Shown here piece by piece: positions 48,084 through 50,264 of a DNA stretch of 64,000 bases. Both the position numbers and the translations under genes were made by a program. The stretch is from Neisseria meningitidis (GTDB lineage: Bacteria > Pseudomonadota > Gammaproteobacteria > Burkholderiales > Neisseriaceae): NCBI RefSeq assembly GCF_900638555.1, contig NZ_LR134525.1:868001-932000 (forward strand). Direction: 5' to 3'. How positions within the stretch are numbered: the first letter of the stretch is position 1; each line of letters opens with the position of its first letter. The notes beneath the pieces are model-generated. The model ran no database searches. It was not told the DNA's origin and saw only the letters and a program-made list of their open reading frames with translations.

Positions 48084-48173
48084 AATTTCTTCTAAAAATA
48101 CACACTAAAATACCATATCTTGATAACCGCAACGCCGCACAAATGGCAGGGCATTGATGCCCGACAACAAAAA

Positions 48174-48215
48174 ATGCCGTCTGAAACAGCATTCGAGCTG
48201 TTTTCAGACGGCATT
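48174..48215. terminator. AT-DUS hairpin between divergent units
   Basis: ATGCCGTCTGAAA and TTTCAGACGGCAT flank a second small inverted repeat (CAGC/GCTG), with A/T runs outside. Insulates the plus-strand island from the minus-strand genes. Confidence 0.7.
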
Positions 48216-48241
48216 TTTCTTTGATTTTGTTGGGGAAAGGG

Positions 48242-48270
48242 TTGACTTTTAACGTGTCCACGTTTATAAT
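48242..48270 (+). promoter_or_regulatory. Strong promoter with internal operator
   Basis: TTGACT and TATAAT are separated by exactly 17 bp. The spacer contains the perfect palindrome AACGTGTCCACGTT (48251-48264). It faces the micropeptide/RHH modules, so these should be strongly but repressibly transcribed. Confidence 0.8.
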
Positions 48271-48343
48271 TCAATTCATCGGCGTAGTGAGGGCCGATAC
48301 GGGAAAAGCCCCACCGAAGCGGGGCTCAACTGGGAGAAAGAAG

Positions 48344-48415
48344 ATGAATAAACGCACTATTCAAATTCTCATCTTGGTCGCAGTTTTCATGTTGGCAAGT
48401 GCTAATGCCTACTAA
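48344..48415 (+). CDS. Ibs-like hydrophobic micropeptide 1
   Basis: 23 residues: MNKRTIQ, then a single membrane helix ILILVAVFMLA, ending SANAY. GGGAGAAAG sits before the ATG, and a GCCCC/GGGGC hairpin (48307-48326) lies in the leader. Size, composition and final Tyr recall Ibs-type type I toxins. A GC hairpin (48427-48452) follows, then the RHH-like gene. Could alternatively be a leader peptide. Confidence 0.6.
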   Translation: MNKRTIQILILVAVFMLASANAY

Positions 48416-48497
48416 AGACTGACCAGCTGGGGGCGGTCGCCGCTGTCCCCAGTCCCAATCTTACAAAATACGGTTTAAAAAATCAAGGAGTTTGCCT

Positions 48498-48665
48498 ATG
48501 GTTGATGAAAAACTGGCAGAAAACCGAAAGCGTTACGAGCAGAAACGGGTGATTAAGAAAGTCTCGTTCAATGCCGAAACGGAAAAAGAACTTTTGGAAT
48601 ATGCCCAAAATATCGATTTTTCCCAATGGGTTAAATCAATCATCAAAGAAAAAATCAAAAAATAG
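48498..48665 (+). CDS. Small ribbon-helix-helix-like protein 1
   Basis: 55 residues: basic start (ENRKRYEQKRV), a likely beta strand IKKVSFN, helix ETEKELLEYAQNI, turn DFSQ and helix WVKSIIKEKI, the order of an Arc/MetJ-type RHH. AAGGAG precedes the ATG. Two paralogues follow downstream with the same core K-VSF-EKEL-DFS-WVKS. Most likely a DNA-binding regulator of its own module. Confidence 0.65.
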   Translation: MVDEKLAENRKRYEQKRVIKKVSFNAETEKELLEYAQNIDFSQWVKSIIKEKIKK

Positions 48666-48716
48666 CTTGACTAAATTCTAGAAATACTAGATAATACGCC
48701 TATCTGATAAAGCAAA

Positions 48717-48741
48717 GCCCCGAAGCGGCAACTTCGGGGGC
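48717..48741 (+). ncRNA. GC hairpin in leader of module 2
   Basis: GCCCCGAAG-CGGCAA-CTTCGGGGGC forms a strong stem before AAAGGAGG. It matches in position the hairpins at 48307, 49131 and 49575. Structured leader RNA or terminator. Confidence 0.5.
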
Positions 48742-48769
48742 TTATCGGATAGAAAGGAGGCTTGTGGAA

Positions 48770-48835
48770 ATGACAAAACTGGCGAAAGTTGTTTTTTTCA
48801 TCATTCTGCTTTTAAGCTGTAGTCCGGCTTACTAA
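48770..48835 (+). CDS. Ibs-like hydrophobic micropeptide 2
   Basis: 21 residues: MTKLAK, then VVFFIILLLSC, ending SPAY. AAAGGAGG precedes it; a GTG two codons upstream is an alternative start. Same length class, hydrophobicity and final AY as peptide 1, although the sequences differ, so the pair appears under selection for character rather than exact sequence. Lipobox-like LLSC is present but the peptide is too short for a lipoprotein. Confidence 0.6.
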   Translation: MTKLAKVVFFIILLLSCSPAY

Positions 48836-48937
48836 GCAAGTTGATTAAACACAAGGGGTGGCAGAACACCGCGCCCCTTTCGCCAACCTTTCTGCAAGCC
48901 ATTTTACTACAACGATTTTAAAAATCAAGGATTGCCT

Positions 48938-49123
48938 ATGCCTGATGAAAAAACGCTAAAAGCAAAACAAGCTGAATATCAGCGAAAGTATGACCAAAAG
49001 CGGCTGATGAAAACAGTTTCTTTCCATTTGGAAAGAGAGAAAGAGTTGGTGGATTTTATGCAAAAAGAAATTCCCGACTTTTCAAACTGGGTTAAATCAG
49101 TCATGAAGGAAAAAATGAAATAA
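48938..49123 (+). CDS. Small ribbon-helix-helix-like protein 2
   Basis: 61 residues; paralogue of the 48498 product with LMKTVSF strand, EREKELVDFMQKEIP helix and DFSNWVKSVMKEK. The leader AAAAATCAAGGA..TTGCCTATG matches that of paralogue 1 almost base for base, showing unit duplication. A TTG two codons upstream also opens the frame, but the ATG has the right spacing. Confidence 0.65.
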   Translation: MPDEKTLKAKQAEYQRKYDQKRLMKTVSFHLEREKELVDFMQKEIPDFSNWVKSVMKEKMK

Positions 49124-49130
49124 GAAAATT

Positions 49131-49154
49131 CCGCCGATGGGAAAACATCGGCGG
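49131..49154 (+). ncRNA. GC hairpin of module 3
   Basis: CCGCCGATG-GGAAAA-CATCGGCGG, followed by AACAGGTGGAAAGC. Same placement as the other module hairpins, but no micropeptide follows it. Confidence 0.45.
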
Positions 49155-49200
49155 AACAGGTGGAAAGCAGAGCAGCAACTCTCTTTATGTAGGGCATGAA

Positions 49201-49249
49201 AAAAGGCCGTCTGAAACAGGTTTTAAACCCCATTTCAGACGGCTTTTTG
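49201..49249. terminator. AG-DUS hairpin, duplicated at 50498
   Basis: GGCCGTCTGAAA and TTTCAGACGGC around CAGGTTTTAAACCCCA. The same ~45 bp recurs at 50498-50545. Confidence 0.75.
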
Positions 49250-49323
49250 TTGTAATACATCTTGATTAAAATGGTTTTTAGTATTACCATAATCGTGTTT
49301 TAAAACCTATTTAAAGGAAGATT

Positions 49324-49524
49324 ATGGACTCGATTAAAAAGGCTCAAGAAAAATACGCACTCAAGCGAGTAGTGAAAACAGTATCGTTCAATTCCGAAAA
49401 AGAACTTGATTTAATTAAATTTTCTGAAAATTTAGATTTTTCAAACTGGGTAAAATCGAAAATTAGAGGAGATATGGAATCGGAAAAATTCAAAAAGAAA
49501 GCAAAAAAGAATATTGACAAATAG
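49324..49524 (+). CDS. Small ribbon-helix-helix-like protein 3
   Basis: 66 residues; third paralogue: RVVKTVSFNSEKELDLIKFS, then NLDFSNWVKSKI, with a lysine-rich tail KFKKKAKKNIDK. AAAGGAAG precedes the ATG. No micropeptide precedes it, so this module may have lost one. Very AT-rich coding sequence compared with phage structural genes. Confidence 0.62.
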   Translation: MDSIKKAQEKYALKRVVKTVSFNSEKELDLIKFSENLDFSNWVKSKIRGDMESEKFKKKAKKNIDK

Positions 49525-49542
49525 AATTACCATAATTTAAAA

Positions 49543-49604
49543 TTTCCATATCTTGTGCAACACAAGATATGGAAATCCCCGATAAGTGACAGCTTATCGG
49601 GGAT
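49543..49604 (+). terminator. Paired perfect hairpins after module 3
   Basis: TTTCCATATCTTGTG/CACAAGATATGGAAA (15-bp stem, 3-nt loop) is followed directly by ATCCCCGATAAG/CTTATCGGGGAT (12-bp stem). The first could be an operator or an RNA; the second matches the module hairpins. Confidence 0.6.
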
Positions 49605-49655
49605 AGTGGAAAAGCAACGTTAGAGCGTTCTTTTCCTTGTCATCTCAACCTTGAA

Positions 49656-50264
49656 ATGAAAGATAATTTTACCATGAATACCCAACTCATCCCAACTGTT
49701 TCAGGTCAATTGGACAATCAAACACAAGCACTGGTTGATGCTCATGACCTGCATAAGTTCTTAGGTGTGGAAACACCATTTTCTAAATGGATTCAGCGTC
49801 GCATTGAAGAATACGGATTTACACAAGCCCTTGATTTTATCGGCGTGGACAAAATTGTCCGCACCGAAGCAGGTTTCTTTGGACAGCGTGATAAAACTGT
49901 TCAGGGGTATTATTTATCCCTCGACATGGCAAAAGAGCTGTGCATGGTGGAGCGCAACGACAAAGGACGCCAAGCCCGCCGATATTTTATCGAAATGGAG
50001 AAACAGGCAAAAGCCCTGCCTGATGCCGTGCTATACCGCATCGATGCATTGGAAGACGCCTATTTCCAAGCCGCGCCCGAAATGCTCGCGCTGCTGCGCT
50101 ACCGCAGTATGGGCTTGAACCTGACCGAAATAGGCAAACTCTTGGACATGAACCCCGGCGCGGTTTCCTACCGTCTCAAAAAACTCAACGATTTGGGTTT
50201 CTTGGAATATGTCCCCAAGCCCAAAATGGTGGTGCAACAACAGTCTTTGGGATTGGAGGGTTAA
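49656..50264 (+). CDS. AntA/AntB-family antirepressor
   Basis: 202 residues from MKDNFTMNTQ (or 196 from the second ATG; neither has a strong ribosome site). The AntA domain is residues 25-110: LVDAHDLHKFLGVETPFSKW, YGFTQALDFIG, GYYLSLDMAKELCMVERNDK. The C-terminal part holds a helix-turn-helix (NLTEIGKLLDMNPGAVSYRL). Antirepressors inactivate phage repressors to trigger induction. Likely to work with the 71-residue protein 4 bp downstream. Confidence 0.85.
   Translation: MKDNFTMNTQLIPTVSGQLDNQTQALVDAHDLHKFLGVETPFSKWIQRRIEEYGFTQALDFIGVDKIVRTEAGFFGQRDKTVQGYYLSLDMAKELCMVERNDKGRQARRYFIEMEKQAKALPDAVLYRIDALEDAYFQAAPEMLALLRYRSMGLNLTEIGKLLDMNPGAVSYRLKKLNDLGFLEYVPKPKMVVQQQSLGLEG

Follow-up and report, generated by a model that had tools for sequence, protein, structure and literature searches.

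Within the window, by which the whole stretch of 64,000 nt of Neisseria meningitidis DNA analyzed here is meant, a gene for a hydrophobic micropeptide is twice followed by a gene for a small protein, and a third small-protein gene lies downstream. The question raised by this locus is what kind of system couples such a peptide to such a protein: the preliminary description had compared the peptides with type I toxins of the Ibs class and the proteins with ribbon-helix-helix (RHH) regulators of the type II style, and had not recognized the arrangement. The answer proposed here is that units 1 and 2 are probably Ibs/Sib-type type I modules, each provided with a dedicated autorepressor as its third gene and carried by a prophage.

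Organization of the locus

The host element of the cassette is a Mu-like prophage, with genes for a transposase, a DNA transposition protein, a Gam-like protein and a late activator (minus strand). The cassette itself lies on the plus strand, flanked by the Gam-like gene and by a run of minus-strand phage genes. Units 1 and 2 have the same order, namely a promoter with a palindrome in its spacer, a GC hairpin, the hydrophobic peptide, a second hairpin, a leader and a small protein of the phrog_8400 family; unit 3 consists of an operator and a small protein only and is followed by an AntA antirepressor gene. The leaders of units 1 and 2 are near-identical (direct repeats D5 and D6), and the three small-protein genes are related to one another, repeats D1 and D2 being present in three copies. 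The two peptide ORFs, the hairpins, the near-identical leaders and the three related small proteins of the preliminary description were all recovered in place, as was the lack of a peptide in the third unit, where none precedes the gene at 49324..49524. When the phage collection, which may omit near records, was searched, neither a DNA nor a protein match to the locus was obtained; in the plasmid collection, five records matched. Inverted repeats at 48171-48218 and 49201-49248 flank both toxin units and contain GCCGTCTGAA, which we take to be the neisserial DNA uptake sequence.

In unit 1, a toxin-operon promoter (TTGACT-17-TATAAT, 11/12) was predicted on the plus strand at 48242..48270, and its spacer holds the putative operator, the palindrome AACGTGTCCACGTT (48251..48264). 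A GC hairpin (48307..48326) with TTTT after it in minus-strand reading is the predicted antisense RNA terminator; it closely resembles the sib terminators of E. coli, and a simple terminator scan missed it. The ORF at 48344-48415 (plus strand) encodes an Ibs-like peptide of 23 amino acid residues with the C-terminus NAY. On the minus strand, a Sib-like antisense RNA of ∼150 nt, its ends placed from promoter and terminator, was predicted at 48302..48451, over the whole peptide gene. The predicted promoter of this RNA (48458..48486, minus strand; TTGATT-17-TAAGAT) scores 8/12 and therefore falls under the 9/12 threshold of the promoter scan. The RHH-like small protein of 55 residues is encoded on the plus strand at 48498..48665 and, like the other two of the window, matches phrog_8400 (E 3e-32).

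In unit 2, the corresponding promoter (TTGACT-17-GATAAT, 10/12) was predicted at 48667..48695 on the plus strand, with the palindrome TCTAGAAATACTAGA as the putative operator (48677..48691). The GC hairpin at 48715..48743, terminator-like at 48739-48718 of the minus strand, is the predicted end of the antisense RNA of this unit (48711..48894, minus strand), which was delimited in the same way as that of unit 1. The Ibs-like peptide has 21 residues when read from ATG (48770-48835, plus strand; 23 from GTG at 48764) and ends in PAY. The antisense promoter (TTGATT-16-TAAAAT, 9/12) was predicted at 48901..48928 on the minus strand, and an RHH-like protein of 61 residues is encoded at 48938..49123 on the plus strand (phrog_8400, E 5e-31).

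In unit 3, the operator copy TAGTATTACCATAAT (49279..49293; direct repeat D10) lies upstream of the repressor gene and overlaps a promoter-like site at 49266-49293. The gene, on the plus strand, specifies an RHH-like protein of 66 residues (phrog_8400, E 1.2e-17). A second copy of the same operator (49522-49536, again D10) sits in a promoter predicted before the antirepressor gene (TTGACA-18-TAAAAT, 11/12; 49514..49543, plus strand), and the AntA-type antirepressor of 202 residues is encoded at 49656..50264 on the plus strand (Pfam AntA 2.1e-22; phrog_5817 3e-63). At 49575-49640, the antirepressor gene was seen to have a structured 5′ leader, a variable GC hairpin followed by a stem of the GGAAAGCAACG...CGTTCTTTCC type, which recurs 3′ of the repressor gene in several loci.

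Predicted antisense RNA anatomy and relation to Ibs/Sib

The GC hairpins of the preliminary description are present and take on a more definite reading: the one before the peptide is best read on the minus strand, where it is likely the terminator of the antisense RNA, and the one after the peptide is likely the 5′ stem of that RNA. The leader AAAAATCAAGGA is present as well and appears to have a double role: it is the small protein's ribosome site and also, when the minus strand is read (TTGATTTTT), the -35 element of the antisense promoter. The minus-strand promoters of units 1 and 2 point back across the peptide gene. Of 36 leader clusters, 33 have a strict antisense promoter, where shuffles lead to an expectation of 2.5, and of nine units that have a small protein without a peptide, one has it; unit 3, scored through its identical copy L023, has no strict antisense promoter. 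For the five E. coli K-12 loci, the promoter rule put all of the Sib 5′ ends at most 1 nt from their annotated positions (predicted 39, 38, 35, 39 and 39 nt past the stop codon; annotated 39, 38, 35, 40 and 40 nt). The antisense RNAs of the window would start 35 nt (unit 1) and 58 nt (unit 2) past the peptide stop, unit 2 being of a subtype whose 5′ part is longer, and that of unit 1, as placed, would end ∼42 nt before the peptide start; the E. coli Sib RNAs extend from 35-40 nt past the stop to 42-46 nt before the start. As for the 5′ stem, compensatory changes were observed on both sides in 9 cells, a value that none of 500 shuffles attained, and 3 of 6 pairs showed compensation, which 70 of the 500 shuffles also attained. 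An antisense RNA that extends over the complete toxin gene, ribosome site included, with promoter and terminator conserved, is predicted on this basis. The identity of this RNA with the prophage-borne gonococcal smRNA 7 was considered and rejected, as the probe given in the section of the publication at hand (PMC4148029) is absent from all loci collected here. The section at hand of a gonococcal RNA-seq paper (PMC4176332) contains no datum on this locus.

The relation to sib was analyzed with covariance models. The model R1, for which 11 sequences from a single subtype of these antisense RNAs were used, found all five sib genes of E. coli K-12 on the right strand, with E-values (8.7e-13 to 6.4e-10; next match 0.2) that are rough owing to a short calibration. 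In the genome of the window, R1 matched unit 1 at the equivalent of 48294-48459 and did not find unit 2. In 10 of 15 loci, the Rfam model SIB_RNA could be aligned along its full length, antisense to the peptide; the E-values over the 15 loci were 0.008 to 9.7, all of them below the family cut-off and those of 3 to 10 singly meaningless. The best SIB_RNA score in a two-locus search was 33.9 bits (E 7.8e-4), and in the search of the window's own genome the sole match at E ≤ 1 was this locus (E 0.083); within unit 1, the match spans 48328-48486. The SIB gathering score of 56 bits was reached by none of 46 genomes of the genus (best 44.5 bits, unit 1 only 21.2 bits), and the modules are therefore not filed as members of RF00113. 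Under strict filters, which also missed the window's own genome, SIB was detected in two genomes each at the level of the order (399 genomes) and of the class (369 genomes). Judged by these comparisons, the modules are related to the Ibs/Sib kind yet lie outside RF00113, and the assignment of the peptides to the Ibs class in the preliminary description is borne out by the antisense alignments of SIB_RNA and by the recovery of the E. coli sib genes with R1.

The peptides themselves measure 18-24 residues across the modules (23 and 21 in the window) and, like the Ibs/Sib toxins of about 18-19 residues, are single-helix and hydrophobic. When differences were counted at codon positions 1/2/3 in three peptide groups (203/90/231, 72/63/73 and 1291/535/1364), the second position was found to change least in all three, weakly so in the second group; this is consistent with the codon pattern of a selected hydrophobic peptide. 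In L024 and L037 (N. gonorrhoeae, viral contig), the peptide C-terminus differs and has no AY, and the promoter, the antisense promoter and the repressor are kept. A lipoprotein reading of peptide 2 (LSCS) was dropped because L002 has S at that position.

Taken side by side with E. coli Ibs/Sib (RF00113), the modules described here share the length and hydrophobicity of the peptide, the C-terminal AY in most, a predicted antisense RNA that spans the entire toxin gene, at distances that agree in unit 1, a near-identical terminator hairpin and the occurrence of neighbouring copies. They differ in that a strong toxin promoter contains a predicted operator and that a small repressor-like gene shares the strand of the toxin gene, in the many copies on phage contigs and in scoring below the Rfam cut-off.

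Recurrence of the modules and repressor-operator covariation

The order of peptide, hairpin and small protein is more than a product of chance and recurs in many other loci. A module row was defined by an intact peptide from a hand-made list, and frame-broken copies are therefore outside the count. Four of 59 rows, truncated by contig ends (L103, L042, L088 and L148), were left out and, with L054 added, the final count was 56 modules; the palindrome (24 classes), leader-cluster (36) and partner-less promoter analyses were run without L054. As a partner, an ORF of 45-100 residues with an ATG, starting 45-170 nt after the peptide, was accepted. Such an ORF was present in 51 of the 56 distinct intact modules with full context and absent from 5, many of the rows being related and modules found through the repressor being over-represented; by the same rule, it was present in none of the five E. 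coli loci. A promoter score of at least 9/12 was reached in 47 of the 51 modules with a partner, in three of the five partner-less modules and in none of the five E. coli loci. R1, which makes no use of the repressor, found 25 places, and 20 of these were followed by a small repressor-like ORF, as judged by eye; the places without one lie in the genomes G026 (four) and G047 (one). One of the four peptides in G026 is frame-broken and three are intact, and the G047 copy has a poor -35 element. The degraded copies among these, together with L047, which has no working repressor and a broken toxin gene as well, are a handful of cases that fit with a dependence on the repressor; the three intact G026 peptides do not add to them.

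Several of the loci have features of their own. In L095 (G041:C46:4500-16500), four Ibs/Sib-like modules lie within ∼10 kb, and the small RHH-type protein that comes after the peptide differs from module to module. Two loci come from other families of the class: L172 (G719), a stand-alone Ibs-like module near a sequence that resembles a tRNA by eye, and L173 (G728), where a broken peptide frame is followed by a small protein that resembles, again by eye, the phrog_3887 type. The pairing of peptide and small protein may reach beyond Neisseriaceae. At positions 1697-1781 of L040, a match to the Rfam family sRNA-Xcc1 was observed above the gathering score (71 bits versus 53).

Since the peptide and the repressor gene share a strand, with the peptide first, the peptide might be regarded as a leader or attenuator for that gene, with the antisense RNA tuning the repressor in the manner of P22 sar/ant; the antisense -35 element also overlaps the repressor leader, and convergent transcription could therefore affect the repressor. 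This explanation is judged unlikely: with its 5′ end ∼47 nt before the start of the unit 1 repressor, the predicted antisense RNA leaves that start uncovered, peptide and antisense RNA have relatives in a toxin pair that stands on its own in E. coli, a stand-alone copy exists (L172), and repressor-only units do without the peptide.

Under the reading of the units as type I modules with a linked autorepressor, the small protein should be a DNA-binding protein. SIB and R1 searches of the genus and the family also brought up modules that lack a phrog_8400 protein, most of which carry another small protein at the same place. Of five such partners scanned, two matched phrog_3887 and three phrog_27481, and sorting of the first 50 partners by motif gave 29 phrog_8400-like, 12 phrog_27481-like and 9 phrog_3887-like proteins (one of the nine assigned manually and not by the script; the added L054 is phrog_8400-like). 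Pfam RHH_1 was passed by three of nine scanned partner proteins of other modules (27.6, 29.9 and 24.3 bits versus 20.5) and not by the other six. For phrog_8400, no Pfam or NCBIfam RHH match above the cut-off was obtained: among 30 members, RHH_1 was absent, and one CcdA match (0.025) and five DUF3950 matches (best 0.0033) were recorded. Stathmin and SNARE matches of this family, below the cut-off, were set aside as helix-composition matches. A PDB sequence search with phrog_8400 gave no usable match. AlphaFold models of the family, the first of them poor, consist of helices with no paired strand; the monomer model (pLDDT 80.5) has helices at 4-21, 31-44 and 48-60 and no element at 22-30, and Foldseek found nothing for it in the PDB.

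The promoter regions were then compared. Over 24 operator classes, an excess of palindromes was observed (z 6.3; none of 500 shuffles as high), and the control inside the partner gene gave a z of -1.8. Taken singly, the palindrome reached p < 0.05 in only 9 of the 24 classes, and neither operator of the window did so (shuffle p 0.073 for unit 1 and 0.256 for unit 2); in L054, the spacer is a poor palindrome. Operator similarity tracked the predicted strand residues of the repressor (Mantel r 0.66, permutation p 2e-4; 25 phrog_8400 modules), and the correlation was 0.64 when peptide similarity was removed (n 25); operator and peptide, with the repressor accounted for, were unrelated (partial r 0.03, p 0.28; n 25), all of these p values being optimistic because the module rows are related. 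The run without L054 (n 24) gave 0.66, 0.65 and 0.07. Natural swaps were also observed. Unit 1 and L001 have an identical peptide, a different operator and a different repressor, and the same peptide occurs with another repressor and another operator in unit 1 versus L001/L029, L044 versus L052 and L007 versus L043; conversely, the same operator is found with different peptides in L011, L017, L044, L048 and L050.

A near-exact second operator copy (at least 13 of 14-15 positions) was found just 3′ of the repressor gene in 7 of the 25 modules and was absent in 18. In L007, the second copy matches at 13 of 15 positions, and an operator of another class fits equally well; in unit 3, it lies within the 11/12 promoter before the antirepressor gene. 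In nine of nine loci (the seven with a second operator and two picked by hand), the next gene matches antirepressor or Rha families.

The small proteins therefore hold up as DNA-binding candidates on account of the promoter palindromes, the covariation of operator and protein and the RHH_1-passing partners, and phrog_8400 itself remains without a profile match. Of the type II style that the preliminary description had seen in them, the regulator-like character stands; the proteins look like transcriptional autorepressors of their own operon, not like toxin-binding type II antitoxins.

It could also be argued that the modules are Ibs/Sib relics without present function, which travel with phage repressor genes. 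The frame-broken peptides in homologous islands that the preliminary description had named as contrary evidence do occur in a few copies (L047, in which both the repressor and the toxin gene are broken, G026d, G018:C63 and L173), and the gonococcal copy has an altered peptide C-terminus. The tabulated module peptides are intact, however, and the codon-position pattern, the antisense promoter kept in 33 of 36 leader clusters and the repeated exchange of operator and repressor while the peptide stays as it is make it improbable that the modules are mere relics. That the small proteins are type II-like protein antitoxins which bind the peptide, with the operator serving the usual autoregulation, would suit the gene order of a toxin followed by a small DNA-binding-like protein, RHH proteins being common type II antitoxins, but is very improbable, given that identical or near-identical peptides occur with different repressors and the operator changes with the repressor, that similar peptides have partners of three families with no conserved peptide/protein interface visible, and that the antisense RNA anatomy already supplies an antitoxin.

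Proposed mechanism and biological meaning

For Ibs/Sib-type modules with a dedicated autorepressor, the following scheme is proposed. A strong sigma-70 promoter would give an mRNA for the single-helix membrane peptide and the downstream small RHH-type repressor. A convergent promoter, situated directly 5′ of the repressor gene, would drive an antisense RNA of some 150-185 nt; this RNA would extend over the whole peptide gene with its ribosome site as far as the GC hairpin and, like Sib in the case of Ibs, prevent the peptide from being translated. By binding the palindrome that separates the -35 and -10 elements, the repressor would switch off its own promoter and with it the transcription of toxin and repressor; the toxin mRNA would be kept low, and the antisense RNA would block the remainder. 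Some loci, unit 3 of the window among them, also have this operator in the promoter region of the antirepressor gene downstream, and there the repressor would silence both the toxin and the antirepressor. Should the repressor be lost, diluted or removed, the toxin would rise, together with the antirepressor where the second operator exists, and this release would make the cell or the prophage dependent on keeping the repressor. For this scheme, sequence comparison supplies the parts with their order and recurrence, the relation to sib and the covariation of operator and repressor; transcription, DNA binding, toxicity and the biological role are inferred.

A broader proposal, which is taken seriously and held with reserve, is that of a recurrent three-part phage cassette. 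Its constant core may be the Ibs/Sib toxin with the antisense RNA, and the RHH repressor with its operator may be an exchangeable specificity cartridge; by silencing toxin and antirepressor, the repressor would tie the survival of the cell to the regulatory state of the prophage. If this were true, loss, titration or mismatch of the repressor would be costly, as in repressor addiction or the exclusion of related phages.

Known systems resemble the modules in part. TisB/IstR-1 and SymE/SymR are type I toxins controlled by LexA, the global SOS repressor. Toxin transcription under a DNA-binding protein, combined with RNA control, is common to them and to the modules; their repressor is the global one and not a linked, self-regulated gene. 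In P22 immI, the RHH repressors Arc and Mnt are found with the sar antisense RNA and the Ant antirepressor, and sar tunes ant. RHH-type repressors, an antisense RNA and an antirepressor thus share one phage locus in both cases, whereas here the antisense RNA lies over a membrane peptide, not over ant, and the repressor families are interchangeable. In yonT/SR6 of the Bacillus prophage SPbeta, too, an antisense RNA accompanies a prophage type I toxin whose mRNA is polycistronic; in the section of the source at hand, SR6 overlaps the toxin 3′ end and no repressor gene is named in the yonT operon (PMC5848175). The Ibs/Sib toxins, according to the sections at hand of the sources and in part to general background, are mainly known as stand-alone chromosomal repeats of E. 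coli, the use of which is unclear (PMC4147584, PMC8309996).

The new part is the linked small repressor-like gene, drawn from three families, with a predicted operator inside the toxin promoter; neither this three-part design nor another Ibs/Sib-plus-repressor system was found described in the literature searched, and earlier mention of Ibs homologues outside enterics is possible. Tandem cassettes with different operators in one prophage would be a natural set for the study of RHH operator specificity, and with the linked antirepressor a role in the phage switch becomes directly testable. The cassettes would show how a type I module gets wired to a transcription factor, and prophage cassettes with exchangeable repressor families would give Ibs/Sib a mobile setting and a testable regulator.
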